Position numbers and translations under genes: made by a program. This document shows positions 12,040-37,200 of a DNA stretch of 64,000 nucleotides, in pieces (position 1 is the stretch's first letter; the number at the start of each line of letters is the position of its first letter). The notes below the pieces were generated by a model. That model saw only the letters and a program-made list of their open reading frames with translations. It was not told the DNA's origin and made no database searches. The DNA comes from Haloferula luteola. GTDB taxonomy: Bacteria > Verrucomicrobiota > Verrucomicrobiia > Verrucomicrobiales > Akkermansiaceae. The stretch is from assembly GCF_014201715.1 (NCBI RefSeq), contig NZ_JACHFD010000008.1:62001-126000 (forward strand), read 5' to 3'.

Positions 12040-14013
12040 TCAGCGGGATTCGTAGAGATACTTCAGCCAAGCCTGTTCGGTAGTGATGTCCCCTTGGCCT
12101 TCCCAGGCAAAGCCGGTCGACCAGGAGATTTTGCCCTGAGCATCGGTCCGGGCGATGACGAGGGATTGCTCCTGATCCCCTTGGCCGGATTCAGTGGAAG
12201 TGATGACCGATGCGGGATCCAGGACGATCCCTGCGCCAAAGCCTAAGCCGTCGATGGATTCCCACAGACTGAAGATTCCGGCCTGAGGCTGGGCGGTGAG
12301 GTGGGCGCCACTTGTCTGATGCTTCAGGCCGATGGCGACTTCGAAGGTGCCCGGTTGGCCATCCACCGTGAAGGAGGATTCGCAATCGATGAGGCGTTGG
12401 CCGAGTTCGATCGTGATGCGCTTGGTTTCGCGAGCAGTGCGTCCATCGGCGAGGCGGTTTTCATAACTGAGCTCGAAGATACCGCGTTCGGGAGTGGATT
12501 CGAGGATTTGGAAAGCGGTATAGGTTTCAAGGTTGGCAGGCTTGCCATCAATCCACAGGGAGATCCCACCGCAGCCCCGGGTGTCGCCGACTTTGTAGGC
12601 ATCGTATCCTTCTCCCTGATCTTCGTGATACGATTTGGCACCCCATTCGGGGGCCTTCGTGGATTCGGCGGTTTGGTATTCGGTGAGCTGGGTGACGTCT
12701 TCGATGAACCATTTGTCCATGACCGGATAGGGAACGCGCTTGAGCCAAGCGTCGATGCCGCCGTCCTCGGCGCCGGAACGAAGGGCAGGACCGTAGGCGC
12801 GGAAAGCGACGAGGTCGTTTTCAAAGGCGAAGTCGTCGACTCGCTCCGGAACATAGCGGAGTCGGACGGCCGGGGCTTCGCGGAGGAAACGACTCGGAAG
12901 GGTCACGTGGGCCCAGGCTTCAAGTTCGGGTTGGGCTTTGGAGGAATCGAGGCCACGCAGCATTTCCGATCCGGCGAGGAGCAAGGCGCCAGTGCCATAG
13001 ACTTCAGTGGATTCGGGCCCGGCAGCGCCGGGGCGATCACCGATGCGCTGGACGAATCCGAACATGCCGTCGGCTTGTACGCATCGTTGCAACGCGTCCC
13101 AGGCCCGATGGAGAGCAGGTCGGAAAGTCTCCTCGGGCAGCAATCCGCGGTTCAGGCCCCAGGCCATGCCGTAGGTGAAAAAGGCACTGCCACTTGATTC
13201 TCCCACGGGGCCTTCGGGATCGAGGAGGCTGGTGCGCCAAAGTCCGTCAGTGCCCTGGAGTTTGACCAAGGCGTGCATCATGTCGTGGTAGAGGCCGAGG
13301 TATTTGGGCCGTGAGGGGTGGTCGGAGGGAAGTCGGTTGAGGACGTTGACGAGGCCTCCGATCACCCAACCATTGCCGCGCGACCAGAAGACTTGGCGAC
13401 CCGATTCGGTGCGCTGATTGAAGAAGCGGCGATCGCGGTAAAAGAGTGCTTCTTGGGGATTGTAGAGGACATCGACGCAGGTCCACCACTCGCGGTCTGC
13501 CCAATCCAAGAATTTCGGATTTCCGGTGATCTGGCTGAGGTGGGTCCAGACGGGGGGAGACATGAAGAGCGTGTCGCACCAGGAGTAGGTGAAGGTGCCT
13601 CCGGATTCGGCAACGGCAGGTCGGTCCTGCAGTCCCTTCATGAGGGCATCGAAACGCTCCAGCGTGGGACGGAGTTTGGCGAGATCGTGGTCGTGCTCGT
13701 AGAGGTCGAGCCAAGCCTGCATGACGGCGTGATCATCGGGGTGGATGACCAGCGGGCCGGGGCCGAAGGAGGCTTGGCGACCAAAAGCGCGCACGGCTTC
13801 CAGGTAGCGATCGTCGCCCGTCACTTGGTGGAGCTGGAGCAAGCCGAGGAAGTAGGGAGCCTGCGTCCAGTCGGTGACCGGATGCTGGGAAGGGTGCTTG
13901 AGTTGCCAGTCGGCGGCCTTTTTCAGGGTGGTGGAAATCTCTGAAGCGGAGGGGGCGGACCAGGCGGGCGCGATCAGGCAGGCGGTGAGAGTGAGGGCGT
14001 GGAAGAGGTTCAT
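12040..14013 (-). CDS. GH105 unsaturated rhamnogalacturonyl hydrolase fused to DUF4861
   Basis: A 657-residue secreted protein with a signal peptide (LTACLIAPAWSA). Residues about 25-365 form the GH105 (alpha/alpha)6 barrel. YSWCDTLFMSPPVWTHL carries the catalytic Asp region and FWSRGNGWVIGGL is also characteristic. Residues about 385-655 match DUF4861 (RYVPERVDDFAFENDLVAFR, YHEDQGEGYDAYKVG, RGCGGISLW), a beta-sandwich found near or fused to such enzymes. GH105 hydrolyses the unsaturated uronic acid left by pectate or rhamnogalacturonan lyases. The gene is divergent from the TRAP operon at 14186, which could import the released sugar acid. Confidence 0.9.
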   Translation of the reverse strand: MNLFHALTLTACLIAPAWSAPSASEISTTLKKAADWQLKHPSQHPVTDWTQAPYFLGLLQLHQVTGDDRYLEAVRAFGRQASFGPGPLVIHPDDHAVMQAWLDLYEHDHDLAKLRPTLERFDALMKGLQDRPAVAESGGTFTYSWCDTLFMSPPVWTHLSQITGNPKFLDWADREWWTCVDVLYNPQEALFYRDRRFFNQRTESGRQVFWSRGNGWVIGGLVNVLNRLPSDHPSRPKYLGLYHDMMHALVKLQGTDGLWRTSLLDPEGPVGESSGSAFFTYGMAWGLNRGLLPEETFRPALHRAWDALQRCVQADGMFGFVQRIGDRPGAAGPESTEVYGTGALLLAGSEMLRGLDSSKAQPELEAWAHVTLPSRFLREAPAVRLRYVPERVDDFAFENDLVAFRAYGPALRSGAEDGGIDAWLKRVPYPVMDKWFIEDVTQLTEYQTAESTKAPEWGAKSYHEDQGEGYDAYKVGDTRGCGGISLWIDGKPANLETYTAFQILESTPERGIFELSYENRLADGRTARETKRITIELGQRLIDCESSFTVDGQPGTFEVAIGLKHQTSGAHLTAQPQAGIFSLWESIDGLGFGAGIVLDPASVITSTESGQGDQEQSLVIARTDAQGKISWSTGFAWEGQGDITTEQAWLKYLYESR

Positions 14014-14185
14014 TTGAAAGGTTTCTTAGGCTTTCCGGCTCATCCGCTACCACATGATGAGGAAATGTCGCGGATTTCCGTTCCCATAGGTGGATTGAGG
14101 ACCCTTTGCTTCACCCCATTCGGGGAGGTTGCCAGGATTGAGATCGTCGGGAGAGCCTTCCGAGCCTTTTGTTTCGAAACCCAGA

Positions 14186-15214
14186 ATGATGAAAGCCTCA
14201 ACCTCTCTCTTTGTGGTCGGCCTATTGGTCGGCCTGTTGGGAGCCTGCCTGACCTTTGCCCTCTTAGGGCAACGGGCGGATGCTCCTGGCGGCGGTGGCC
14301 GTGTGCTCACCGTGGCCCATGCACTGCCGGTGAATCACCCGGTGCACCAAGGTATTGTGGAATTTGGCGAGGAGCTGGCGCGCCTTTCGAACGGGGCGTT
14401 GAAGGTCGAGATCTATCCCAGTGAGCAATTGGGGAATGAAACGGAGTGCCTGGAGAAGGTGCAGCAGGGGGCGATCGATGTGACCAAAGTGAGTGCCGCG
14501 CCGATCGGCAATTTTGTGCCGTTGTTCAAATTGTTCAGCCTTCCCTATTTGTTCCGGGATCGTGAGCATTACTGGAGCACGCTCGACGGTCCGGTCGGGG
14601 CGGATCTGCTCAAGGCGATGGAGACGAATGGTTCCGGCGCCACCAGTGGACTGGTGGGCTTGGGATACTACGATGCGGGCAGCCGGAGTTTCTATACGAC
14701 CCGCAAGGTCACGGGGCCTCAGGATCTCAAAGGCTTGAAAATCCGAGTGATGCAGGACCCAGTGGCGGAGGATACGGTGAAATCCATGGGAGCCTCTGCG
14801 GTGGTGATGTCCTTCGGGGAACTCTATACTTCATTGAAGCAAGGGGGGGTGGATGGAGCGGAAAACAACCCACCAAGCTTCCTTTCAAGCCGCCACTTTG
14901 AGATCTGCAAACACTACGTTCTCGATGAGCATTCGAGCATCCCCGATGTGTTGGTGTGCAGTGAGAAACTGTGGAGCGGCTTGAGCGAGGTCGAGAGGGG
15001 CTGGATGCAGGAGGCGATGAAGAAATCGAGCCTGTTTCAGCGTGCCCTGTGGGCGGAAGAAACGGAGAAATCGCTCCAACAGCTCAGAGAGAGTGGGGTC
15101 GAGATTCTTGAGGCAGATCCGGCTCCATTTCGCGCTGCGGCGGAGTCGGTGACGGAGGCCTACGCGACCGGAGAGCGGGCGGCGATGGTGAAACGGATTC
15201 AGGAGGTGGAATGA
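14186..15214 (+). CDS. dctP: TRAP transporter substrate-binding protein (DctP family)
   Basis: A 342-residue solute-binding protein of a tripartite ATP-independent periplasmic transporter. The N-terminus is a hydrophobic signal or anchor (LFVVGLLVGLLGACLTFALL). Family blocks are LTVAHALPVNHPVHQG, LEKVQQGAIDVTKV and LKGLKIRVMQDPVAEDT, which holds the arginine that normally grips the substrate carboxylate, then MSFGELYTSLKQGGVDGAENN. Two adjacent ATGs (14186 and 14189) could start it. Substrates of this family are organic acids. Next to GH105, an unsaturated or free uronate is the best guess. Its last 4 bp overlap the start of the small permease gene. Confidence 0.92.
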   Translation: MMKASTSLFVVGLLVGLLGACLTFALLGQRADAPGGGGRVLTVAHALPVNHPVHQGIVEFGEELARLSNGALKVEIYPSEQLGNETECLEKVQQGAIDVTKVSAAPIGNFVPLFKLFSLPYLFRDREHYWSTLDGPVGADLLKAMETNGSGATSGLVGLGYYDAGSRSFYTTRKVTGPQDLKGLKIRVMQDPVAEDTVKSMGASAVVMSFGELYTSLKQGGVDGAENNPPSFLSSRHFEICKHYVLDEHSSIPDVLVCSEKLWSGLSEVERGWMQEAMKKSSLFQRALWAEETEKSLQQLRESGVEILEADPAPFRAAAESVTEAYATGERAAMVKRIQEVE

Positions 15215-15714
15215 TGCATCACGGGAGATTTCACCGCGCCTTGGTGAAGGTGCTCAGCGCGCTTTGTGCCGTGCTGTTTGCCGCCTTGGTGCTGGATGTG
15301 CTGTGGGGAGTGTTCACCCGACAGGTGTTGAATGACCAGCCGGCATGGACCGATGAGCTTGCACGGTTTTTGCTCGTGTGGCTGGCCTTATTGGGAGGAG
15401 TACTGGCCTATGCGGACGACCGCCATTTGGGGGTGGATGTGCTGGTTTCCCGCCTGGATCCGGCCGCGCAAAGAATTGCATTGCTGGTATCGCATCTCGG
15501 CGTTTTCGGTTTTTCGCTAGCGGTTTTGGTGGCCGGAGGGGTGGAGCTATTCGTGAGCCGGTGGGAGGCGGGACAGATGATGTCGGCTCTCGATATCCGG
15601 AAGGCGTGGTTCTACTTGGTTCTGCCGCTGGCAGGCTCGCTGATCACGTTGATGGCGGGGGGCAAGGTGATAAGGAGTCTGAAGAGCTTCGGAGAAAGGG
15701 GGGAGGCGCGATGA
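15211..15714 (+). CDS. dctQ: TRAP transporter small permease (DctQ family)
   Basis: A 167-residue protein with four hydrophobic segments, as expected for the DctQ subunit. The typical segment FTRQVLNDQPAWTDELARFLLVWLALLGG follows the first helix. A near-perfect Shine-Dalgarno sequence (AGGAGGT at 15201-15207) precedes the ATG. It overlaps the gene before it by 4 bp (ATGA) and the gene after it by 4 bp, so the three TRAP genes are probably translationally coupled. Confidence 0.92.
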   Translation: MMHHGRFHRALVKVLSALCAVLFAALVLDVLWGVFTRQVLNDQPAWTDELARFLLVWLALLGGVLAYADDRHLGVDVLVSRLDPAAQRIALLVSHLGVFGFSLAVLVAGGVELFVSRWEAGQMMSALDIRKAWFYLVLPLAGSLITLMAGGKVIRSLKSFGERGEAR

Positions 15715-17021
15715 GTGTCGGTCTTGCCGTGCTTTTGGTGGCCTTTGTGGTGCTTCTTTTGTTGGAGGTGCCGGTGGCTTTTGTGATCGGGCTGGCGACT
15801 CTATTGGGGGCGCTGGCGCTCGGTCGGGATGGTTCCCTAGTGTCCCTGGCCAGTGATATGGCAAATGGCCTGGATAGCTTCCCGCTGTTGGCGATTCCGT
15901 TCTTCATTTTGGCGGGAGAGTTGATGGCGGCTGGCGGTCTCGCGAGGCGGATGATCGACTTTGCAGCCGCGATCGTGGGGCGTGTTCCGGGTGGCTTGGC
16001 ATTGATCAATACGCTGACCTGCATGTTATTCGGCGCCGTTTCAGGCTCGGCGACTGCTGCGATATCGTCGATTGGCGGCTCATTGATTCCTGAAATGGAG
16101 CGCAAGGGATATCCTCGTGATTTCAGTGTGGCACTGACGGCGACGGCGGCGACGACGGGATTGTTGATTCCGCCAAGCAATGTGATGATTGTGTATGCTC
16201 TGGTGGCTTCAAATGTTTCGGTGGGAGCATTGTTCCTGGCGGGCATCTTCCCAGGGGTGGTGTCGGGACTGGCATTGATGATCGTGGCCCTGATGGTGAG
16301 CCGTGGTTTCCGACGGGAGACACCGGCGGGAGCTGCTGTTGTGGAGGAGGTGCCGCCGTTTCTCCGTTCGTTCCTGCGGGCGTTTCCGAGCTTGTTGATG
16401 CTGGTTTTGGTGTTGGGCGTGATTCTCGGGGGAATCATGACGCCCACCGAGTCTTCGGCCTTGGCGGTGCTGTGGGCATTGTTGTTGGTGGCGGTGATTT
16501 ACCGGGAAATCCGGTGGTCGCAACTGCCACAGATTCTGATTCAATCCGCGCGTACGACGGGAATCGTACTTCTGCTGGTAGGTACGAGTGCGGCGATGAG
16601 CCGGTTGTTGACGATCGAACAAGTTCCTCAGGTGGCGGCGAATGCGCTGCTGGGGGTTTCGGAGAATCCCTTGGTGATCCTTCTGCTGATCAATTTGGCG
16701 CTGTTGCTGGTGGGGGTGTTCATGGACATGACCCCTGCTATTCTTGTATTCACACCGATCTTTCTGCCTGTGGCGGTGGCGATCGATCTGCACCCGGTGC
16801 ATTTCGGGATCATCATGGTGGCGAATTTGTGCATCGGTCTATGCACACCACCGGTGGGAACTTGCCTTTTCCTAGGCTGCGGCGTGGGAAAAGCGAAGAT
16901 TGCGGGGGTCTCGAAGGCGATGGTCCCGTTCTACATTGCGATGTTTGCAGCCTTGTTGGTGATCACCTACTGGGAGGACCTATCGTTGTGGCTGCCGAGG
17001 GCGCTAGGAGAGCTGGAGTGA
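15711..17021 (+). CDS. dctM: TRAP transporter large permease (DctM family)
   Basis: A 436-residue membrane protein, the sodium-coupled translocation subunit. Recognisable DctM blocks are LLAIPFFILAGELMAAGGLARRMIDFA, MLFGAVSGSATAAISSIGG, ATAATTGLLIPPSNVMIVYA and ANLCIGLCTPPVGTCLF. The ATG at 15711 has a strong upstream GGGGGGAGG and overlaps the dctQ stop. An open frame reaches back to 15378 but that part lies inside dctQ. The stop at 17021 is only 7 bp from the stop of the convergent halogenase gene. Confidence 0.93.
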   Translation: MSVGLAVLLVAFVVLLLLEVPVAFVIGLATLLGALALGRDGSLVSLASDMANGLDSFPLLAIPFFILAGELMAAGGLARRMIDFAAAIVGRVPGGLALINTLTCMLFGAVSGSATAAISSIGGSLIPEMERKGYPRDFSVALTATAATTGLLIPPSNVMIVYALVASNVSVGALFLAGIFPGVVSGLALMIVALMVSRGFRRETPAGAAVVEEVPPFLRSFLRAFPSLLMLVLVLGVILGGIMTPTESSALAVLWALLLVAVIYREIRWSQLPQILIQSARTTGIVLLLVGTSAAMSRLLTIEQVPQVAANALLGVSENPLVILLLINLALLLVGVFMDMTPAILVFTPIFLPVAVAIDLHPVHFGIIMVANLCIGLCTPPVGTCLFLGCGVGKAKIAGVSKAMVPFYIAMFAALLVITYWEDLSLWLPRALGELE

Positions 17022-17028
17022 GCTTTTG

Positions 17029-18540
17029 TCAGGAAGGGGTGGAGTGCTTGCGATCGGCATTCCATTCCCATGCGGGGTGCCGCACGTAGGCGAGGGCTTC
17101 TTTGACGGTGAGCCCCTGGCGGGCTTGAGAGATGTGGGCGGCCCGATGCTGTTGCCAGGTGGTCCATTCCTGCGAGGTGGGTTGGTGGCGGTTTTGGTAG
17201 GCCACTTGCATGCCGACGAGCATGACCAAGTAGCCCTCGATGCCGAAATCGTTCTGGGTGTGGCTGGCAGGAAGTCGGTAGCGAGACAATCCGGTCGGGC
17301 CATTTTCGGCGTAGAAATCAAGCAGCTCGTGGATATTCGATAGGTCGGTCTCCTCGCGGCAGCGACGCCAGAAGGGCGTGTCGAGCGCGGTGTTCGGTTG
17401 GTAGTGGAGGCCGAGGAAGTCGCGAATGCCCAACCAGGTGGGGTGGGTGAGCTCGTTGTAAATCTCGCGGACCGAAGGGGTCGGGTTTTGGCCGCAAGCA
17501 TGGAGCACATCGACAAGGGACTGAATGTGGAGGGAGATGACCATCAGGGCCGTGGCTTCAAGAGGTTCGACGAAGCCGGCAGCATTGCCGAAGGCGACCA
17601 CATTGCCGACCCAGGTTTTGCGATAGCAGCCACTGCGAAAGCGGACGATGCGAGTGGGTCCGACTTTCGGGTTGGAGCGGCGGAACTCGGACTCGGCCGC
17701 CTCGTCGGAGATCATGTCGGAGCAGTAGACGTATCCGCGATGGATGCGATGTTCGTGCTCAATGCGCCAACACCAACCGGTGCTCATTTGCTCCGCCGTG
17801 GTGTAAGGGAGGATGGGTTCACTTTCGCGGTCCCACCCTCCGACGACCGCCCGGTCACAGAACAGGGTGCGATCGAAGGAGAGAAAGGGCGTTTCCAAGG
17901 CCTTGCCCAGCAGTTCACTCCGGAAGCCGCTGCAATCGATGAAGAGGTCCGCTTCCAAACGTTGACCATCGCTTAGAAGAATCGAGCGGATGCCATCGTC
18001 GGAGCGTTCGGCGTCGACCATGTTACCGTCGAGGATGGCGATGCCGGCATCTCGGGCGAGGGATTCGAGCATGGAAACGAAGTGCTCGTTTTCGATGTGA
18101 AAGGAGTGCCAGGCCTGGACTTCAGGGCAGCCATTCGGTTGGCGCGGGAAGACGTGGCCTTGTTCCATCAGCGCCGAGGGAAGGTCGGTCGAGCGAAACT
18201 CGTCGGTGCAGTAGTATCCATTGGGCCGTGGCAGATCACCCCACCAGGAATCGAGTTGGGGGGCGAAAGTGTAGTCGAAGCGCCCGCGCGGTCCCCAGAG
18301 AAAGCGGATACCGAGCTTCCAGGTGGGTCGGGCGAGCTGATAGAAAGTCTTTCGCGGGATTCCGAGCGTCTCGAAGAGCAGGGATGAAAGATTGGGGGTG
18401 GTGCCTTCACCGACACCGATGGTGCCGAGTTTGGGATCGCGAAGGATACGCACAGTGAGGCTGGGGATCCGCTTTTTCAGGGTGAGTGCAGCGAGAAGCC
18501 CGGCGCTTCCTGCGCCGACGATGAGGACGTTTTGAATCAT
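17029..18540 (-). CDS. Flavin-dependent halogenase (tryptophan halogenase family)
   Basis: A 503-residue flavoprotein of the tryptophan-halogenase family. It has the FAD-binding GAGSAGLLAA at residues 9-18, GVGEGTTPNLSSLL, the family lysine K75 in PTWKLGIRF (equivalent to catalytic Lys79 of PrnA), and FGNAAGFVEPLEATAL, which holds the conserved Glu of the active site. The WxWxIP signature is present as WCWRIE (W256, W258), with Glu in place of Pro. Known members use FADH2, oxygen and chloride or bromide to make HOHal that the lysine passes to an aromatic substrate. The substrate here is unknown. No flavin reductase gene lies beside it. Confidence 0.9.
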   Translation of the reverse strand: MIQNVLIVGAGSAGLLAALTLKKRIPSLTVRILRDPKLGTIGVGEGTTPNLSSLLFETLGIPRKTFYQLARPTWKLGIRFLWGPRGRFDYTFAPQLDSWWGDLPRPNGYYCTDEFRSTDLPSALMEQGHVFPRQPNGCPEVQAWHSFHIENEHFVSMLESLARDAGIAILDGNMVDAERSDDGIRSILLSDGQRLEADLFIDCSGFRSELLGKALETPFLSFDRTLFCDRAVVGGWDRESEPILPYTTAEQMSTGWCWRIEHEHRIHRGYVYCSDMISDEAAESEFRRSNPKVGPTRIVRFRSGCYRKTWVGNVVAFGNAAGFVEPLEATALMVISLHIQSLVDVLHACGQNPTPSVREIYNELTHPTWLGIRDFLGLHYQPNTALDTPFWRRCREETDLSNIHELLDFYAENGPTGLSRYRLPASHTQNDFGIEGYLVMLVGMQVAYQNRHQPTSQEWTTWQQHRAAHISQARQGLTVKEALAYVRHPAWEWNADRKHSTPS

Positions 18541-18676
18541 GGCCGGGGAGCGAATGGGAATGAATAACCTAGGGGAGCCGATGGGACTTTGCCAATGGCA
18601 GAGAGTGGCAGAATCTGCGGAAATCGTGGCAGTCGCCACGGGGACAAGAGCGCTGGGAAGTGCCAGGGTGGGGGGC

Positions 18677-19963
18677 ATGGAAGCGAACTGGTTGCATCCC
18701 CGCCAAGAGTTGGTTCAAACGATGAGCCGGATCTATCGCTACCGGATGACGACGACCTCGGGAGGCAATCTCTCGATTCTCGATCCCGATGGCAGCATTT
18801 GGATCACCCCATCGCGCCTCGATAAAGCGAAGCTGCGACCTGCGGATGTGGTGCAGGTGATGCCGGATGGACGGCGCAGCGGTCCGGTGCCTCCGTCTTC
18901 AGAGTTTCCCTTTCACCAGGCGATCTACCGTCGCCGTCCAGACATCAAAGCGATCGTCCACGCCCACCCGGGTGCGCTGGTGGCCTATAGCATCTGTCGT
19001 GAATTGCCGGATTTACGGGTTCAGAGTCATGCCTTTGAGGTGTGTCACAAAATTGCCTACGCGGACTATGCCTGTCCCGGCAGTTCGGAGTTGGCGGGCA
19101 ATATTGCCGATGCCTTTGCGGGTGGGGCCGACTGCGTGATGTTGGAAAACCATGGGGTCGTGGTCGGGGGGAAAGATCTCCAAGATGCGTTCCAGCGTTT
19201 CGAGACGCTGGAGTACGTGGCGCGCTCGCTGATCAATGCCCATCGGCTCGGCAAAATCAGCTCGGTGCCGGTGGAGGTTCTTCGCCACCCCCCGCGTCCA
19301 GAGTTTGCGCCGCTGCCAAAGTCCAAGGCGTCGAATCGGGAAAAGGAACTGCGGGCGGAACTCTGTGAGTTTCTCCATCGGTCCTACGAGCAGCGATTGT
19401 TGATCAGCACCGCGGGAGCCTTTTCGGCCCGCTTGGATGACGATCGATTTGTGGTGACTCCTCATCGTCGGGACCGGCTGGAGATTGAGCCCGACCGGAT
19501 GGTGAGGATTTCAGGCAATGCCTGTGAGGAAGGCGCGCATCCTTCTCGGGCGGCTCGTCTGCATGCCCGGATCTATGAAAAGCATCCGGACGTAGGTGCG
19601 GTGATTTTGGCTCAGCCAGCGGCTGTGAGTGGTTTCTGCATGAGCGATGCGAAACTATCGACTCGAACCATTCCGGAGAGCTATTTGGTTCTTCAAGAAT
19701 CCCCCAAGGTGCCCTTTCGCTGTATCGTGAACGATGCCGATGAGTTGGCCGAATGGGTGAGTTTGCGGAGATGCCCGGTGTTGCTCATTCAGAACGAAGG
19801 GGCGCTGGTGGTCGGCAAGGATCCGCTGGATGCATTCGACCGGCTGGAGGTGCTGGAGGCGACGGCAGAGGCATTGCAGTTGAGCCAAGCGGTGGGTCCC
19901 TTGGTGCCGATGCCCGAGGATGCCCTTGATGAGTTGCGAAGAGCGTTTGGAATGGAAGATTGA
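18677..19963 (+). CDS. Tandem class II aldolase/adducin-fold protein, second domain degenerate
   Basis: A 428-residue protein with two class II aldolase/adducin domains in a row, about residues 8-200 and 225-420. The first keeps the zinc/catalytic set: E76 in SSEFPFHQ, H95 and H97 in VHAHPGAL, and H159 in ENHGVVVGG. In the second, the equivalent positions read LAQPAAV and QNEGALVVG, so all three histidines are lost. Single-domain relatives cleave or epimerise sugar phosphates such as fuculose- or ribulose-phosphate. A strong G-rich ribosome site (18667-18675) supports the ATG at 18677. It is divergent from the halogenase gene with 136 bp between them. Confidence 0.85.
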   Translation: MEANWLHPRQELVQTMSRIYRYRMTTTSGGNLSILDPDGSIWITPSRLDKAKLRPADVVQVMPDGRRSGPVPPSSEFPFHQAIYRRRPDIKAIVHAHPGALVAYSICRELPDLRVQSHAFEVCHKIAYADYACPGSSELAGNIADAFAGGADCVMLENHGVVVGGKDLQDAFQRFETLEYVARSLINAHRLGKISSVPVEVLRHPPRPEFAPLPKSKASNREKELRAELCEFLHRSYEQRLLISTAGAFSARLDDDRFVVTPHRRDRLEIEPDRMVRISGNACEEGAHPSRAARLHARIYEKHPDVGAVILAQPAAVSGFCMSDAKLSTRTIPESYLVLQESPKVPFRCIVNDADELAEWVSLRRCPVLLIQNEGALVVGKDPLDAFDRLEVLEATAEALQLSQAVGPLVPMPEDALDELRRAFGMED

Positions 19964-19970
19964 ACGCTCA

Positions 19971-20003
19971 AAAAAGGGCGGCCCCTCCTGAAAGAGGCCG
20001 CCC
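19971..20003 (-). terminator. Intrinsic terminator of the 20027-20707 PEP-CTERM gene
   Basis: Arms 19976-19983 and 19996-20003 (GGGCGGCC/GGCCGCCC) form a perfect 8-bp stem. The minus strand continues with a T-run (19975-19970). It also sits just after the stop of the convergent aldolase gene at 19963. Confidence 0.8.
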
Positions 20004-20026
20004 GGGGGTGCCAATCCTGAGAAGAT

Positions 20027-20707
20027 TTAGCGGCGGCGGCGGGCAAGGCCGAGAAGGCCGAGACCACCCAGAAGGGCGATCGATGGCTCGGGCACAACCG
20101 TCAATGAGCCCAAGGTGCCAACGGCACGGACATCGGCATAGATGCCGACGTATTCGCCGTCGTTGGCTGTCGTCGGCGTGCGGGTCACGATCACGGTACG
20201 AGTGGCACCATCATAGTAGCCGAGTTCGTAGGTGTTGCTGCCGGTACGGGCGATGAACAGGCTGTCGTAGGTGACGATCCCTGCTGCGGAGAGCCCAAGT
20301 TCCCCGGTGCCATCGAAGCCGCGGCTGTAAAGCTCGCCGTTTCCGCGGGCGTAAACTGCCACGTAGTCTTGGCGGACGTTGAAGGTCGGCGCGGTGCCGC
20401 CCACGTAGAGGCCAATGTCTTGAGAGGCTCCGGTGTGGGTGAGCGCAAGTTTGACCTCGTCGCCGACGGAAAGCGAGAATCCGTCATAGATCATGGCATA
20501 CTGTTGGATGCCATCATAGGTGCTCGTGGTAAGCGCGAGGCTGTCGCCTGTGAGGCTCCAGCTGGCGGTGTTTTGGGAACCGCCATTGGCATCGAGAATG
20601 ACGGTGCTGGTATAGTCGGAGAGATCTCCACTGAGGGTCTCGATGACAGCTCCGGAAGCGGAGAGTGCACCGCAGCTTAGCAGGGCGAGGATGATCGTTT
20701 TTTTCAT
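20027..20707 (-). CDS. PEP-CTERM protein, function unknown
   Basis: A 226-residue exported protein with signal peptide MKKTIILALLSCGALSASGA. Its beta-rich body (FSLSVGDEVKLALTHTG, DYVAVYARGNGELYSRGFDG) looks like a lectin- or jelly-roll-type domain, but I cannot assign a family. The tail VVPEPSIALLGGLGLLGLARRRR is a clear PEP-CTERM signal. The ATG at 20707 is chosen because it starts the signal peptide; the frame runs on to 20833 without one. It lies downstream of two further PEP-CTERM genes on the same strand, but terminators separate them. Confidence 0.8.
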   Translation of the reverse strand: MKKTIILALLSCGALSASGAVIETLSGDLSDYTSTVILDANGGSQNTASWSLTGDSLALTTSTYDGIQQYAMIYDGFSLSVGDEVKLALTHTGASQDIGLYVGGTAPTFNVRQDYVAVYARGNGELYSRGFDGTGELGLSAAGIVTYDSLFIARTGSNTYELGYYDGATRTVIVTRTPTTANDGEYVGIYADVRAVGTLGSLTVVPEPSIALLGGLGLLGLARRRR

Positions 20708-20825
20708 AGGGTTCGGTTGGCATAGGCTCCTCCGAGTATGGGGGAGACCAATTGCCAAATTAGGAATCCAGCCCGTGCGTGAACAGATTCCTCTTCCCCC
20801 CATTTCGTGGGAGCTCCCCCAAAAA

Positions 20826-20856
20826 AGCGGCATCCCCCGGAAATGGGGATGCCGCT
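20826..20856 (-). terminator. Intrinsic terminator of the 20890-21819 PEP-CTERM gene
   Basis: Arms 20826-20837 and 20845-20856 pair over 12 bp (AGCGGCATCCCC/GGGGATGCCGCT). On the minus strand they are followed by a T-run (20825-20821). Confidence 0.85.
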
Positions 20857-20884: not shown

Positions 20885-21441
20885 GGATCTCAGGCGCGGC
20901 GACGGCGCAGCATGCCGAAGAGGCCGAGACCGCCGAGCAGGGCGACCGAAGGTTCGGGAACCGCGACGGTGAGAGCACCGGTGGCCTCGTCGAACAGGTA
21001 GACGCCGGAGGACCAGGTGTTGTCTCCGTTGTCGATGAAGCCCGCGACGCTGAAGGTCGAACCGTAGGTTTCGGTCAGGCTACTGTTGTTCACCAATTGC
21101 CAGGAATCCCCAAGGGTGGTGCTCGCCCCGGTGAGGTTGAGAATGAAATCTCCGTTCAGGGTCATGTTGCCAATTCCCGAAATGGAGTTGTTCACGCCGG
21201 CAGCACCGATGGCAAAGTTGAAGACAGCATTGTCGGCCAAGGTGGCGAAGCTCTGCGCGTTGTTGAGGATGAGATTGCCGTTGAAGGTGCTGCTGGTGCT
21301 GGTGAAGGTGACCATGCGGCCCGCGGATCCACTGCCGTTGCCCATCACGGTGATGGCGCTGCTACCAGAGATGGCGGAGTTGATGGTGAAGCCGCCTTGT
21401 GAGGCGATGCCCATGCCATTGACGCCGACGGTGATGTTGCC
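20885..21441 (-). repeat. 557-bp near-identical block, copy A
   Basis: Aligned by eye with 22056-22612 at a constant offset of 1,171 bp. I count three substitutions and no gaps across 557 bp. The block covers the 3' half of the gene, including its stop codon, and ends abruptly on both sides. Confidence 0.95.
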
Positions 21442-21819
21442 AGCGAGGGTCAATGAATCTCCGTCTCCCGATCCGTGACGGAGTTGGCCGCCATTGACGA
21501 TCAAGTTGCTAATGGTGATCGTTCCAGTGCCCGTGCCTTTCCACATCAAGGCATCGTTGGCAGCGGCTGCGAAGTTTCCGGTGCCGGTGATCGACAGTGA
21601 GTCTCCGCCAAAGGCGTAGTTGGAATTTGCCACGGCAGGAGTGCGCAGGAGGAAACCGGCATTGGAGTAATCGTTGCCGGCGCTGGGCGCGGCAGCATTA
21701 TTCCAAAGTCCGGCAGAGTTGAAGGACGAGCTCCCGAAGCCATCGCTGGCGGTGAGAGTGATCGAAGCTCCAAAGCTCGGAGTCGCAAGCAAGGCGACAA
21801 GCATAAGGTTGAGGTTCAT
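20890..21819 (-). CDS. PEP-CTERM beta-strand-repeat protein, paralog A
   Basis: A 309-residue exported protein with signal peptide MNLNLMLVALLATPSFGAS. The body is Gly/Ser/Asn/Thr-rich with repeated strands (ITISNLIVNGG, LTLAGNITVGVNGMGIASQGG, FNGNLILNNAQSFATLADNAVFNFAIG), the pattern of autotransporter-like parallel beta-helix proteins. The tail VPEPSVALLGGLGLFGMLRRRRA is a PEP-CTERM signal. It is a close paralog of the next gene upstream on this strand (22061-22993). The C-terminal half is almost identical in DNA, while the N-terminal half is clearly diverged. Role unknown, probably cell surface or extracellular matrix. Confidence 0.85.
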   Translation of the reverse strand: MNLNLMLVALLATPSFGASITLTASDGFGSSSFNSAGLWNNAAAPSAGNDYSNAGFLLRTPAVANSNYAFGGDSLSITGTGNFAAAANDALMWKGTGTGTITISNLIVNGGQLRHGSGDGDSLTLAGNITVGVNGMGIASQGGFTINSAISGSSAITVMGNGSGSAGRMVTFTSTSSTFNGNLILNNAQSFATLADNAVFNFAIGAAGVNNSISGIGNMTLNGDFILNLTGASTTLGDSWQLVNNSSLTETYGSTFSVAGFIDNGDNTWSSGVYLFDEATGALTVAVPEPSVALLGGLGLFGMLRRRRA

Positions 21820-21967
21820 TTCTGATGGGTTTTTCTGGGGTTTCAGTGGTGTTGATACCACTTGCTGAAATTCAGAGTGATGGATTCATTCTCCGAACTT
21901 AGCTATGCCATCAGATGAGAATCTTTATGACTTTCAATACGATTGCGTGCTCCTACCCGAATAGGGG

Positions 21968-22055: not shown

Positions 22056-22612
22056 GGATCTCAGGCGCGGCGACGGCGCAGCATGCCGAAGAGGCCGAGA
22101 CCGCCGAGCAGGGCGATCGAAGGTTCGGGAACCGCGACGGTGAGAGCACCGGTGGCCTCGTCGAACAGGTAGACGCCGGAGGACCAGGTGTTGTCTCCGT
22201 TGTCGATGAAGCCCGCGACGCTGAAGGTCGAACCGTAGGTTTCGGTCAGGCTACTGTTGTTCACCAATTGCCAGGAATCCCCAAGGGTGGTGCTCGCCCC
22301 GGTGAGGTTGAGAATGAAATCTCCGTTCAGGGTCATGTTACCAATTCCCGAAATGGAGTTGTTCACGCCGGCAGCACCGATGGCAAAGTTGAAGACAGCA
22401 TTGTCGGCCAAGGTGGCGAAGCTCTGCGCGTTGTTGAGGATGAGATTGCCGTTGAAGGTGCTGCTGGTGCTGGTGAAGGTGACCATGCGGCCCGCGGATC
22501 CACTGCCGTTGCCCATCACGGTGATGGCGCTGCTACCAGAGATGGCGGAGTTGATGGTGAAGCCGCCTTGTGAAGCGATGCCCATGCCATTGACGCCGAC
22601 GGTGATGTTGCC
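22056..22612 (-). repeat. 557-bp near-identical block, copy B
   Basis: Partner of 20885-21441 in direct orientation. The three differences I see fall near 22116, 22340 and 22574. Outside the block the paralogs differ in many positions. Confidence 0.95.
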
Positions 22613-22993
22613 GTTGAGCGCGAAGGAATCGACTTCGCCCGATCCGTGGCGGAGCTGGCCACCGTTGACGATCAGGTTGCTGACGGTGATGACGTTGCCG
22701 GTGCCAAGGCCCTTGAACATCAGGGCGTCATTCGCGGCCGCCGCGAAATTGCCGGTGCCGGTGATGGTCAACGAGTCCCCGCCGAAAGTGTAGCTGGCGC
22801 TGGTCGTAGCGGGGGTGCGCAGGAGGAAACCGGCATTGGAGTAGTCGTTGCCGGCGCTGGGCGCGGCAGCATTACTCCAGAGACCGGCGGAATTGAAGGA
22901 TGAGCTCCCGAAGCCATCGCTGGCGGTGAGAGTGACGGACGCTCCGAACGCTGGAGCAGCGAGCAGGGATAGCAGGACAAGTGTACGGTTCAT
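22061..22993 (-). CDS. PEP-CTERM beta-strand-repeat protein, paralog B
   Basis: A 310-residue paralog of the 20890-21819 product. The signal peptide is MNRTLVLLSLLAAPAFGAS. The Gly/Asn-rich body has the same repeat-strand architecture, and the tail is VPEPSIALLGGLGLFGMLRRRRA. From the strand NITVGVNGMGIASQGG to the tail, the two proteins differ in a single residue by my reading (VPEPSI versus VPEPSV). The N-terminal 160 residues carry many substitutions. The ATG at 22993 starts the signal peptide; an open frame continues to 23104 without one. Confidence 0.85.
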   Translation of the reverse strand: MNRTLVLLSLLAAPAFGASVTLTASDGFGSSSFNSAGLWSNAAAPSAGNDYSNAGFLLRTPATTSASYTFGGDSLTITGTGNFAAAANDALMFKGLGTGNVITVSNLIVNGGQLRHGSGEVDSFALNGNITVGVNGMGIASQGGFTINSAISGSSAITVMGNGSGSAGRMVTFTSTSSTFNGNLILNNAQSFATLADNAVFNFAIGAAGVNNSISGIGNMTLNGDFILNLTGASTTLGDSWQLVNNSSLTETYGSTFSVAGFIDNGDNTWSSGVYLFDEATGALTVAVPEPSIALLGGLGLFGMLRRRRA

Positions 22994-23137
22994 AGCGGGT
23001 GGTTTTGGGCGTGGTGCCCAGGTTGGGGTTGGGGCCGATGGACCGAAAAAGGCCGATCGATCGGCACCTTGCTCCGATTTGATCCGTCGCCTGTCGTGGG
23101 TCAACGGGATTGCATGGAACCACTCGATTGGAGGGTG

Positions 23138-27237: not shown

Positions 27238-28308
27238 ATGGATGCGATGGATCCCTCCCTGCACGAACTCCTCCAAGTCTCCTTCAATGGGGGTGCCAGT
27301 GATGTCTTTCTTCTTGAAGGAGAATGTCCACGAGTGCGGCAGGATGGGGAGGTCATCAAGGCTCATGGGGAGCCTTTGGAGAAAGAGACGATCGCTGCGA
27401 TTTGGCGGGAATGTGGGGTTGATCCGCAGACGGGCGAGGATGCGGATGCGAGCTTCGTCGTTGAGGGCGTTGGGCGCCTCCGGGTGAACGCCTACCGCTC
27501 ATTGGGGCGGATCGGGGTGGTGATGCGACCGATCAAAAGCCAGATTCCAGGGTTTGGGGATCTCGGATTGCCGGGATATCTTCTGCAGCAATGGCTGGTG
27601 CGTCGTTCCGGACTGATTTTGATTTGCGGGCCGACAGGGGCTGGCAAATCGACCACCGTGGCGGCCTGCCTGGAATGGATCAATCAGCACCGAGCTTGCC
27701 ACATCGTGACCTTGGAAGATCCGATTGAGTATCTCTTCGTCAATCAAAGGTCCTACTTTTCCCAGCGGGAGATGGGGCGAGATACCTCGGAGTTCAGTCA
27801 TGCCTTACGCCAAGCTTTGCGCCAGAATCCCGATGTCATTTTCTTTGGCGAGATTCGCGATTCGGAGTCCGCACTGGCAGCGCTGCGAGCTGCGGAAACG
27901 GGGCACCTTGTGATCTCCACTTTGCACGCGGCTGGTGTTTCGGGAGTGCCGGTGGCCATCGAGAGGCTGACGCGGATGCTGGGTAGTGCGATGGCGGGAA
28001 CTTCTTATTTGTTGTCGACCCAGCTGATTGGCGTGATGGCACAGCAGCTCTTGCCGCGGATCGATGGCGGCGTGGTCGCGATGTTGGAGTATTTCGAGAA
28101 TTCGGGGATCACGCGAAAGCTGATTGGGGATCAATCGGCTTCCGAGCTGCGGGATCATCTGGACCGGAGCGAATCGGATGCCGCCTGCCCCTTCCTGCGT
28201 TACTTGGTGGCCGCCACGCGACAGAATATCATTTCCGTCGATATCGCGCGCGCCGCCTGTGATCGCCCGCAGGATTTTGATCGCGCCATGCGCGGCATCA
28301 CCTCCTGA
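27238..28308 (+). CDS. PilT/PilU-type pilus retraction ATPase, first of a pair
   Basis: A 356-residue secretion-type ATPase. The N-terminal domain starts with HELLQVSFNGGASDVFLLEG, close to the PilT N-domain. Walker A is GPTGAGKSTT (residues 131-140). The Asp box EDPIEYLF, Walker B DVIFFGEIRDSESA and His box TGHLVISTLHAAG follow. PilT motors depolymerise type IV pili and drive twitching, DNA uptake or adhesion. The end is unusual: the AIRxLIRE-type region is replaced by SGITRKLIGDQSASELRDHL. This suggests a PilU-like accessory role beside the more standard gene 12 bp downstream. No pilin or pilus assembly genes lie nearby. Confidence 0.88.
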   Translation: MDAMDPSLHELLQVSFNGGASDVFLLEGECPRVRQDGEVIKAHGEPLEKETIAAIWRECGVDPQTGEDADASFVVEGVGRLRVNAYRSLGRIGVVMRPIKSQIPGFGDLGLPGYLLQQWLVRRSGLILICGPTGAGKSTTVAACLEWINQHRACHIVTLEDPIEYLFVNQRSYFSQREMGRDTSEFSHALRQALRQNPDVIFFGEIRDSESALAALRAAETGHLVISTLHAAGVSGVPVAIERLTRMLGSAMAGTSYLLSTQLIGVMAQQLLPRIDGGVVAMLEYFENSGITRKLIGDQSASELRDHLDRSESDAACPFLRYLVAATRQNIISVDIARAACDRPQDFDRAMRGITS

Positions 28309-28320
28309 TCTTATCCTCCC

Positions 28321-29376
28321 ATGAGCGAATCCAAGGAAATCACCGACTACCTCCGCCAGACCGTCGAGCTGGGGGGATCTGACCTGCATCTCTCCGCCTG
28401 GGCTCCCCCCGCGGCTCGGGTTTCGGGAAACATGGTCCCGCTCGAGGACTTTTTGTTAACTCCAGAATCCGTGGAATCCCTGATCGACCAGAGCTTGAGC
28501 GAGAAGCAAAGGGCCGATCTCGATGCCAATCTGGAACTCGACTATGCGCTGCATCTGGAGAATGTGGGTCGCTTTCGTGGCAACATCCACGTTGTCCGCG
28601 GCACTCACGAGGCCGCGTTCCGTTTCATTCCTGAGGAAATTCCTGAACTGGATCACCTCGGACACCATTCAACAGTGGCGGATCTTTGCCAACTACGGCG
28701 GGGGCTGGTGTTGGTGACGGGGGTGACGGGATCCGGGAAGACGACGACCTTGGCGGCGATGATCAAACGGATTGCGGAGACCCGCTCTGGCGTCATCATC
28801 ACCATTGAAGATCCGATCGAGTATCAGTTTTCGCACCTATCCTGCCTCATCAAGCAACGTGAGATCGGTCGCGATACCAAGGGGTTCTCCATCGCCCTGC
28901 GCCAGGCGTTGCGCCAGGACCCTGATGTGATTGTGGTTTCTGAACTGCGCGATCTGGAGACGATTCGCATCGCTCTGACAGCGGCGGAAACGGGGCACTT
29001 GGTCTTGGCGACCTTGCACACGATCGATGCTCCTCAGACGATCGATCGTTTGGTTGATGTGTTTCCGCCGGAGCAGCAGCAACAGATCGTGACGCAACTC
29101 GCCGGGGTGCTGGAAGGGATCGTCTCGCAACGATTGATGCCGCGGTCCGATGGACAGGGCCGGGTGCTGGCTTCCGAAGTCCTGCGCTCCACCCACGGCA
29201 TCCGTGCGTGCATCCGTGAACGCAAGATCGAGCAACTCGTCGGCTTGATGGAAATTTCTTCCCGCGAGGGCAATCGGACCATCGATCAGTCGATCAAAGT
29301 TCGCCTTCAACAGGGATACATTTCTCTTGAGGAGGCGATTCATCATGCCCGCGAGCCGCGGAATTTCATGGGATGA
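28321..29376 (+). CDS. PilT-type pilus retraction ATPase, second of a pair
   Basis: A 351-residue PilT-family ATPase following its paralog with a 12-bp gap. Walker A is GVTGSGKTTT, the Asp box is EDPIEYQFSHLSCLIKQREIG, the His box is ETGHLVLATLHTID, and the C-terminal region HGIRACIRERKIEQLVGLM matches the PilT AIRNLIRE region. Walker B reads DVIVVSELRDLETI, with Ser where most PilT proteins have Gly. A dual PilT/PilU-like motor for type IV pilus retraction is the best reading. The operon ends 6 bp from the convergent SDR gene. Confidence 0.9.
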   Translation: MSESKEITDYLRQTVELGGSDLHLSAWAPPAARVSGNMVPLEDFLLTPESVESLIDQSLSEKQRADLDANLELDYALHLENVGRFRGNIHVVRGTHEAAFRFIPEEIPELDHLGHHSTVADLCQLRRGLVLVTGVTGSGKTTTLAAMIKRIAETRSGVIITIEDPIEYQFSHLSCLIKQREIGRDTKGFSIALRQALRQDPDVIVVSELRDLETIRIALTAAETGHLVLATLHTIDAPQTIDRLVDVFPPEQQQQIVTQLAGVLEGIVSQRLMPRSDGQGRVLASEVLRSTHGIRACIRERKIEQLVGLMEISSREGNRTIDQSIKVRLQQGYISLEEAIHHAREPRNFMG

Positions 29377-34222: not shown

Positions 34223-37200
34223 CTATTCGAGAACGAGGGTGAGGCTGCCGTGATCGGGATGGGTGACTAAGATGGCGATGCGGCCGGAAGGGATGGGAGC
34301 GTCGTCGGTGAGGGTGCGGTAGTCGAACATCCCACGGAGGTCGGTGTAGCCGTCTTTGAGAAACGCCGGTTGGCCGTCGCGTTCGGTGTACACCTTCACA
34401 TACGCGGCGGATATCGGTGAGCCGGTTTCGGCCTGGCGAACCTGCAGGATCGGATGGTTGCGTGTGCAGGTGACTTGGAGGGCATGACTATTGAGGACAC
34501 GGAGGGTTTTGATGGCACCCGCATCGGCGACCACGAGGACGTTGCCCTGTTGGTAAGGTGCCGGCAGGTCGACGAGAGTCTGTTCCTCTGCGAGCGGGAC
34601 GTTTTCGACGAGGTTGGGCTGAGTGCCGGGGAGTTTCCCAGAGTCTTGGAGGAAGGGATTTCGCGAGAAGAGCATCTCAAGATCGACCTGATAGAGCGAG
34701 AGGTCGACCTGTTTGAGGCCTCTCTGGGTGATTTGGAGCTGCCCATGTTTGGCGAGGGCAAGGTCGAGATGGGTGGCAGGAACTTGGGATGGGTCGGGCC
34801 CGGAAGTCAGGGGTGCACGGGTGAGTTCCGCGATTTCTTCCGCTTGGGAGATGACGGATTGAAAGCGATCCGACCATGGGCCCGGCGGTGCGTCGGCATG
34901 CGACCGCGCGAGGGTTGCTGCATCTTCGGGTTTGCCCTGATGGAAGAGCGCAAGGGATTTTAGATAGTCATATGCGATTGTGGAGGAAACCTGGTCGCGA
35001 TCGACCTTTTCGAGCCGTTCAAGTGCGTCGGTCACGCGGTCTTGGAGGAACAGGAAGCCGGTTAAGTGGAGCTGGTCATCGGCCGAGAGGATCGGTTTCC
35101 ACGCGAGCTGCCGGAGGAAGTCCTGATAGTGCTTCTGGAGGGCTTCCTGCGAGAACCATGGACGGTTTGAGAGGCGGTGGCTGCGTGAATGGATGAGGGG
35201 ATCGAATTCGAGATTGGCCCAATCGCCGTGGATGAAGGGTTCGATGCGGAGGAGGGGGGAATCGAGGAATTCACCGAGCTGGTGGAGTTCGGGGGACGTT
35301 TCCAACCAGTCGTGGAGGGTCTCGCGGTCTTGGTGAAGGAAGGCATAGCGAGCAAGGGAGGAAGGCAGGACGAGGCGTTCGCGGAGGATGGAAAGGGCGG
35401 GCTCGTAGAAGTCGCGGTCTCGACAGCGCCAGGCGAGCAAGTCGAGATTGACTTTCTGAAGGTTGACTGTGCGTAGGCGCTCGAGGACCTGGGCAGAACT
35501 GCCATCGCGGGCCAGCACTGGCCATGAGTCCCCATTTTCTGTGGGAAGTGTATCGACGACTTGGAAAGTTTTCGTCGCAGCGCTGGCGAGGATGGTTTCT
35601 CCAGAAGAGATGTGGAGGGGGTACGCGGTGAACTCGCCAGGTGAGGGGAAGTAAAAGGCAAGGTCGAACTTCAGCACTTCGTAGGGCTTCAGTTTGTGGA
35701 CGGTGGAGAGGGTGGCATCCTTGCCGCGGAGGGCGATCGATCCTGCAGGGATTTGGGCGAGGACTTCGATGCGGCGGGCGTCTCCCGTTGGGTTGGTGAC
35801 GACGAGTGAAGCTCCGTAGGGGACGCCGGTAAGGAAGGGGCCTTTGACCGATTTTTCGACTTCGCTGCTATCCTCATTTACGAAGTGCTCGTTGAGCCGG
35901 TGAAACGTCTCACGAACCAATACGGGGGAGTCATCGGCGAACTGGTCGGTCTCCCGGGTGTCCTTGAAAAAAAGCAGCATGGAGGTGACCGCTGCGACGT
36001 GAAGGGTGGTGTCATCGCGAATGATTTCGGGTGCTTGCGCTTTGAAAGGGAGGTCGAGTACCGCCAAGGCCATGAGTGCCGCATTGGGGGAAGCGGTGCA
36101 GGCATGAAAGTGTGGGGAGAGGAATGGGCCGCTGCCGTCCCAGCGCGCAAAGTCGAGCCAGAAGGCATTGAGTGGGATCATCGTTTCGCTGGTGTCCTTG
36201 CTCGGATGATGGTCGTAGTTCGATTCCATCCAGATGCGGGTGAGAGGGCGGGCAGCGGACCCGCGACGGAGGGGTGGGCGGAGGGCGACTTCTGGTGTGA
36301 GCCCGAGATCGCCGACATTGTGCTGAAAATCGTCTCCCTCATCTGACAGGGATCGGATCAATGAATCCATGAACTCAAGATTGGTTGGGGTGTTGCGAAT
36401 GAGGAGGGTCCCGGCTTCGGCGAAGAACTGGGCCGACGCACCTGCCCTAAATTTGATTCCTTGGGATTTCAGGAGTTCGACCAAGGATTGGCGACGGGGG
36501 GCCGGGAGCATTTCGTTGGAAGCGAATGGATCCGAATCTCCGTCAGCAGCGAAGCGATCGTTCGCAGCGTTCAAAACGGAGATGAAATTGGGCGGGACTT
36601 TGTAGGAGCGGGTGAAGAGGTCCTCGCCGACTTCGGTCGCCGGCTTGATCGTCACCGCGAAGTCATCGATGGACCAGCGAAGGCGGGTCGCCTCGCAGAT
36701 GTAGTTGAGGGCCTCGGCAAGCGGAACGTTGCGCAAACGAAGTTCTTGGATTCGTTGAGATTGAAAGGGGCCGCGGACCACGATTTTGATGCCCTTTTTT
36801 TGGGGGTCCAATTCGACGGTATCGAACTCGATCGAACGCATGCGCAGGAATTCAATGGCATCGGACACCGAGATATCTTCAAAATCGATGGTCGGGATGA
36901 TGATCTTGCGCATCTTCATTTGGATGAAGCTGGCTCCTGACGATTTCACCGTGAAGGCGCTTTTGGCCTCCTCGGCCTCGTTGCGGGCGATTCCGAGCGA
37001 ATCGATGGAGGCGAGGTCGGTGCCGCGGAGGATTTGGGCAAATCGTTGGTTTTCCTGTTCAGGGTTGGGTGCTTCCAGTTCCCAGCAGTCTTCGAGTTGA
37101 TCGAGGATGCGATCACGAGCTGCGGGCAGCGCGTGGACAAGGAGTGCCTTTTCGGCCGCGTTGAGGCGTCTCCAGGCAAAAGGCCTGAGATACGCGGTGA

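Follow-up and report, generated by a model that had tools for sequence, protein, structure and literature searches.

A halogenase-like flavoprotein of Haloferula luteola related to MibH, and the possible halogenation of tryptophan in exported low-charge proteins

The stretch analyzed here (the window) comprises 64,000 nucleotides of the Haloferula luteola genome (contig NZ_JACHFD010000008.1, positions 62,001 to 126,000, forward strand) and encodes a flavin-dependent-halogenase-like protein whose relatives, in many genomes, lie beside genes for exported repeat proteins with few charged residues. The enzyme is tentatively proposed to be a MibH-type halogenase that halogenates tryptophan in exported low-charge proteins. 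Relatives were fetched from Verrucomicrobia, including Prosthecobacter and Chthoniobacter bins, and 72 sequences were aligned, of which 57 constitute a main clade (more than 40% identical to the window's protein, itself included) and 15 are divergent. The gene and its active-site features are listed first; FAD denotes flavin adenine dinucleotide and pLDDT the predicted local distance difference test.

17029..18540, minus strand: flavin-dependent-halogenase-like protein, 503 aa (PF04820, 320 bits; start placed by family alignment; AlphaFold2 model, pLDDT 90)
18499..18516, minus strand: GxGxxG FAD-binding motif, residues G9-G14 (from the sequence)
18316..18318, minus strand: catalytic lysine, Lys75 (kept in 57/57 main-clade members)
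17755..17775, minus strand: WCWRIEH, residues 256-262, replacing WxWxIP (family alignment)
17545..17574, minus strand: FVEPLEATAL loop, residues 323-332, including Glu328 (family alignment)

The open reading frame (ORF) extends in full over 17029-18678 on the minus strand, but the longer form is unnecessary because the family alignment begins at the methionine at 18540; no signal peptide is apparent in the 503-aa protein. Its match to Trp_halogenase (PF04820) lies far above the cut-off of 21 bits. The best sequence match in the PDB is MibH (5uao; 1.3e-87, the next being 2.5e-54), and 5uao is also the best fold match of the AlphaFold2 model (36% identity, template modeling score 0.87). MibH, the peptide tryptophan 5-halogenase of NAI-107, is described as a peptide halogenase (PMC7336383; this and the other PMC articles below are cited from excerpts). 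A quick maximum-likelihood tree, which has only Shimodaira-Hasegawa-like approximate likelihood ratio test support and was flagged by the tool for the meeting of long branches, groups the 72 verrucomicrobial sequences in one clade (98) that joins MibH and a Streptomyces plasmid protein (100); BrvH, Xcc4156, and Th-Hal lie apart from it, as do three plasmid proteins. An earlier reading made from the sequence alone (the sequence-only reading) had looked to PrnA, RebH, and BrvH for a phylogenetic comparison; the nearest solved relative is instead MibH, and sequence, fold, and tree alike place the enzyme with halogenases. The family has at least one copy in 16/18 genomes of the window's genus (its own included) and in 3/20 others among the 38 searched, and a thinner draw across the phylum gave a match at 1e-60 in 8/288. 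It is a lineage-specific verrucomicrobial expansion. Phage or plasmid origin was considered and rejected, the best plasmid match reaching 38.5% identity and the phage match listed first 30.6%.

The key lysine, the FVEPLEATA loop, and most of WxWxIP had been recognized in the sequence-only reading, and Lys75, F323-A331, and W256-E261 (WCWRIE) are indeed all present. Within the main clade G9 and G11 are kept in 57/57 members and G14 in 56/57, while Lys75 is invariant and Glu328 is kept in 56/57, matching MibH, in which the lysine and the glutamate are both in place. Two further signatures are incomplete. WxWxIP reads WCWRIEH, and in the halide-loop motif FxPxSxG (written Fx.Px.Sx.G in PMC7336383, where BrvH and others likewise lack the Gly) the Phe and Pro are kept and the Ser and Gly positions are mostly alanine (Ala329 in 49/57, Ala331 in 56/57). 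MibH has GWCWTIP and EPLESSG, whereas the verrucomicrobial clade has WxWx-hydrophobic-E/D-H and mostly EPLEATA. The change of proline to glutamate, which had been singled out as deserving a look, is real but not peculiar to the window's gene: position 261 is Glu in 38/57 and Asp in 19/57 main-clade members and is followed by His262 in 57/57, and the divergent copies likewise have Glu or Asp and then His in 15/15. With the acid-His pair present in all 72 aligned sequences, the change is ancestral to the clade.

WxWxIP has been proposed, without proof, to prevent hydroxylation (PMC10696468). One alternative, accordingly, is that the E/D-H pair admits substrate to the flavin and that the enzyme is a peptidyl or aryl monooxygenase, hydroxylating its target much as QhpG, a peptidyl tryptophan dihydroxylase with a halogenase-like fold, modifies protein tryptophan (PMC7876137). 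The invariance of acidic 261 and H262 fits this alternative, as do the halide-loop alanines, which also tell against the halogenation proposed here, and the NCBIfam matches to QhpG (40.2 bits, cut-off 240), GoxB (23.4, cut-off 400), and LodB (20.2, cut-off 400), all weak and far below their cut-offs. However, Lys75 and Glu328, which are associated with the handling of hypohalite, are kept, the placement by sequence, fold, and tree described above sides with halogenases, and QhpG is distant in sequence, reaching only 7.8e-4 as a PDB match. Since both catalytic residues persist across the clade, the change to glutamate alone is not enough to turn the enzyme into a monooxygenase, and we regard this alternative as unlikely. 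Halogenation is the favored chemistry, likely but not certain because the role of WxWxIP is unproven and the halide-loop Ser and Gly are Ala. By its anatomy the enzyme would work like a MibH-type halogenase, and the name "halogenase-like" is advised because WxWxIP and FxPxSxG are not intact. The clade is a natural test of what WxWxIP does, because the proline is replaced by an acid and then His with the catalytic Lys and Glu kept.

A protein substrate is suggested by the neighborhoods of relatives. An adjacent, same-strand gene for an exported-type low-charge repeat protein accompanies 23/57 main-clade halogenase genes (upstream in 16, downstream in 10, and on both sides in some), membership of this class being decided by composition (at least 250 aa; G, N, T, S, A, V, and D together above 52%; K, E, and R below 11%). 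By the same rule such a neighbor was found for 0/86 size-matched genes in 20 control stretches of 20 kb and for 3/122 other size-matched genes within the halogenase loci. Genes were called by a simple rule of length and GC content at third codon positions, and under this and the composition rule the counts may shift by a few; locus L066, for one, counted as non-adjacent owing to a 133-aa ORF on the opposite strand. Eight genomes supplied the control stretches; of the 20 drawn at random, 2 were exchanged manually ahead of fetching, one for overlapping a halogenase locus and the other for overlapping another control. The linked proteins are often longer than 1,200 aa, all three of the large ones scanned contain PATR repeats, and four smaller partners with PEP-CTERM ends are encoded 26-128 bp upstream of the halogenase (L049, L059, L079, L098). 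The adjacency label changes at least 11 times on the halogenase gene tree, so the linkage is not a single inherited block.

The partners include two recurrent types. The exported proteins in 7/8 loci of one well-supported halogenase subclade share an N-terminal domain of about 200 aa that occurs in 0/63 other exported-class proteins of the set; no Pfam match was obtained for it in the two linked proteins scanned (L086, L095). Genomes differ in whether the partner bearing this domain lies upstream of the halogenase, downstream of it, or divergent from it. Strong matches to the domain (more than 200 bits, 20 genomes) fall within 10 kb of a halogenase in 8/9 cases, a linkage that is favored by the search model having been built from linked proteins, and the proportion over all matches, weaker relatives included, is 8/38. 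Its structure model is poor (pLDDT 62). An example of the domain, at L098:7336-7962, shows a conserved Trp (alignments A2, A4, A5). Trp69 of the domain was considered as the target residue; it is present in 8/8 linked rows but also in 3/6 unlinked members and is only a lead. The second type is a giant repeat family found with the window-type clade, for which 15/28 matches of at least 170 bits lie within 10 kb of a halogenase, 9/22 when the six seeds are left out, and 18/45 across all matches listed, with chance proximity estimated at roughly 1% from about 3 halogenase loci per genome. Eighteen stretches around unlinked members contained no halogenase and no neighbor group spanning more than 3 loci.

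An alternative is that this linkage is functionally meaningless, with halogenases and giant exported genes sharing variable regions and being co-inherited in a few syntenic blocks. Much of the signal does come from one syntenic group (within L067-L076), several loci of which represent one inherited arrangement, and repeat proteins are common near halogenase loci in general (62/650 genes vs 9/313 in control stretches). The co-occurrence of enzyme and repeat family, described below, also changes only 3 times on the species tree. Left unaccounted for are the rarity of such neighbors among other similar-sized genes of the same loci (the 3/122 above) and the position of the domain-bearing partner, which varies between genomes. 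This alternative is considered quite improbable.

The surroundings of the window's own gene are as follows.

18541..18676, no strand: intergenic region, 136 bp, between the divergent halogenase and aldolase genes
18677..19963, plus strand: two-domain class II aldolase-fold protein, 428 aa (PF00596 in two stretches; judged outside the system)
19976..20003, minus strand: terminator-like hairpin and T run that would end minus-strand transcripts coming from the nearest PEP-CTERM gene (pattern scan)
20027..20833, minus strand: PEP-CTERM exported protein, 268 aa, Tyr-rich (5.2% Tyr; PF07589)
20890..21861, minus strand: PEP-CTERM exported protein of the low-charge repeat class (PF07589; composition class)
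22061..23104, minus strand: PEP-CTERM exported protein, near copy of that at 20890-21861 (PF07589)

Beyond the halide-loop alanines and the shared synteny, several observations weigh against the proposal that such exported proteins are the substrates. By the adjacency rule 34/57 main-clade genes are not scored as lying beside an exported repeat gene, among them the three in the window's own genome (contigs C4, C8, C35). In the window the linkage is absent or broken: between the halogenase and the PEP-CTERM genes stand the aldolase, on the opposite strand, and the hairpin, whose stem has 12 pairs, 9 of them G-C (the pattern scan of the region found 2 hairpins vs 2.3 expected in shuffled sequence). 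In favor of the proposal, the same genome does encode a 1570-aa protein of the giant family on contig C27, with no halogenase in the 19 kb fetched around it; aligned over 1583 columns, this protein shows 61% identity to the partner of another halogenase, one that is 63% identical to the window's. Window-type halogenase and repeat family (at least 170 bits) co-occur in the same 11/20 genomes. On an rpoB tree of 18/20 genomes (G006 and G011, in which no rpoB match was found, were left out), this trait changes 3 times and yields 2 supported independent pairs (p 0.5), and the co-occurrence is suggestive only, because the threshold was set after the scores had been seen and the changes are too few. 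One subclade (L046, L080, L083, L084) lies near genes for an Na/H-exchanger-family protein and FAD monooxygenase-like proteins, a neighborhood that looks more like small-molecule chemistry.

The last of these fits a further alternative, in which the enzyme halogenates a free small aromatic compound (indole, a phenol, or a signal) using generic flavin reduction and no dedicated cluster, and is tied to exported proteins indirectly. Free indole is halogenated by BrvH and Xcc4156, two enzymes whose natural substrates are likewise not known (PMC5945002, PMC7336383), one Streptomyces plasmid tryptophan halogenase adjoins a cation:proton antiporter and a flavin reductase, and the nearest plasmid relative, from Streptomyces, is situated among non-ribosomal peptide synthetase genes. 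A free aromatic substrate would nevertheless leave unexplained both the adjacency to exported repeat genes and the association of a single N-terminal domain with one subclade, and the nearest kin, MibH and ChlH, act on peptides; we find it rather unlikely. Inspection of the C-terminal part of the 503-aa protein by eye, with no scripted scan, did not reveal the Trp4 motif of free-tryptophan halogenases (YYxxF... or (Y/H)YHG...), as defined in PMC8269204. A separate gene in another locus (L103; G000:C20:10225-11163) encodes an FAD monooxygenase-like protein that matches Trp_halogenase weakly and is kin of halogenase-adjacent genes elsewhere.

Returning to halogenation of exported proteins, the analysis shows the family, the fold, the kinship with MibH, the conserved Lys and Glu, the E/D-H motif throughout the clade, and the enriched linkage to exported-type repeat proteins in relatives. 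From these we infer that the reaction is a halogenation, that it is directed at tryptophan, that the substrate is a protein, and which protein is the cognate one in the window's genome. The enzyme would take FADH2 from a general cellular reductase and form a flavin hydroperoxide that oxidizes halide to hypohalite, which would pass along a tunnel to Lys75 and Glu328; the indole of a tryptophan within an exported low-charge protein would then be halogenated before or during Sec export. The cognate protein would often be encoded next door in relatives, and in the window's genome the likeliest candidates would be the 1570-aa C27 repeat protein or the PEP-CTERM proteins encoded nearby. That giant exported proteins so poor in charged residues serve as substrates is plausible by analogy with ChlH, which is 58% identical to MibH and halogenates linear peptides as well as one internal Trp of a full-length 1054-aa protein (PMC12518702). 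ChlH prefers surroundings that are small and apolar, and positive charge inhibits it (PMC12518702), a preference that resembles the low-charge character of the linked exported proteins. A broader version, possible but doubtful, is that the job of the whole family is to halogenate tryptophan of its hosts' own giant exported repeat and PEP-CTERM proteins, with the E/D-H motif adapted to bulky polypeptides and a dead paralogue as partner at some loci.

Flavin-dependent action on tryptophan inside ribosomal polypeptides has precedents in ChlH (chlorolassin) and SrpI (proteusins) (PMC12518702, PMC10858898, PMC12615548). These two act on short precursors of ribosomally synthesized and post-translationally modified peptides (RiPPs) and are likened to the window's enzyme by description, not by sequence. 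The question of what cluster-less halogenases act on in nature has been raised as an open problem for BrvH (PMC5945002). BrvH and Xcc4156 are orphan enzymes that may, it has been suggested, use a peptide substrate (PMC7336383); they differ from the present family in lying on another tree branch and in having WxWxIP intact. The verrucomicrobial family supplies a cluster-less halogenase whose partner, the product of an adjacent gene in many genomes, can be tested. The open-licence PMC literature yielded nothing joining tryptophan halogenase with PEP-CTERM and, in the excerpts available, nothing relevant joining flavin-dependent halogenase with autotransporter. Should halotryptophan be found in the partners, the reach of enzymatic halogenation would widen to large surface proteins made by free-living bacteria, as a dedicated modification directed at surface proteins instead of antibiotics or short peptides, and new protein-labeling tools could follow.

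The gene context of the window agrees with the sequence-only reading in that no natural-product genes or flavin reductase adjoin the halogenase: none was found among the neighbors scanned, which comprise TRAP-transporter genes, a GH88/DUF4861 protein, a GDSL lipase, PEP-CTERM proteins, and a glycosyl hydrolase 2 (GH2) protein. Nor were RiPP precursor or maturation genes found among these neighbors, whereas MibH serves a lantibiotic cluster. The genome has a single Flavin_Reduct match, on another contig (C6). The suggestion that the enzyme acts on a component of the envelope or surface, and not in making an antibiotic, is partly supported, its direction fitting both the neighborhoods of relatives and the kinship with MibH.

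A functional tie to the aldolase is not supported. Among 20 genomes the aldolase is matched in only 2 others, and in neither of these does the fetched neighborhood contain anything matching the halogenase or the TRAP proteins of the window; it also fails to recur beside halogenases in the neighborhoods of relatives; it was rejected as a functional partner, and its adjacency looks accidental. It had also been described as the only close neighbor sharing an intergenic region; it is indeed divergent and 136 bp away, but a convergent TRAP permease gene is close too, its stop codon ending 7 bp from that of the halogenase. The aldolase ORF spans 18539-19963 on the plus strand, with the start most likely at 18677, and no sigma-70-like promoter was found in 16900-20100. 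By eye, the first aldolase domain keeps what we take to be the His/Glu metal ligands of fuculose aldolase (SSE, HAH, NHG), and the second seems to have lost them.

Divergent copies of the enzyme occur at 13 fetched loci outside the window's genome directly after a main-clade gene and on the same strand (L052, L054-L057, L060, L061, L087, L089-L091, L097, L101). Across all 15 divergent sequences of the alignment, Glu328 is lost in 15/15 and Lys75 in 14/15, and position 331 is Arg in 15/15; these copies have the look of dead enzymes that could act as partners to the active one. The window's genome has a further tandem (L064, contig C13), in which both copies are divergent. At L052, L055, L060, L087, and L089 a small membrane-like protein follows the tandem pair. 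As possible hidden RiPP precursors, genes of 86-128 aa downstream of tandem pairs were set aside because they appear to encode membrane proteins, and c17 (100 aa, four related loci), read by eye, is conserved and soluble-looking and not precursor-like.

Elsewhere in the window, the TRAP transporter operon (14129-17021), convergent with the halogenase gene, is adjoined at 12040-14013 by a gene for a glycosyl hydrolase 88 (GH88) domain fused to DUF4861. The PEP-CTERM genes at 20890-21861 and 22061-23104 share about 89-91% identity across some 300 aa. At 27238-29376 there are two PilT/PilU-type ATPase genes, and a 2239-aa ORF at 34223-40942 has a partial match, below cut-off, to the Amuc_1098 family of pilus proteins.

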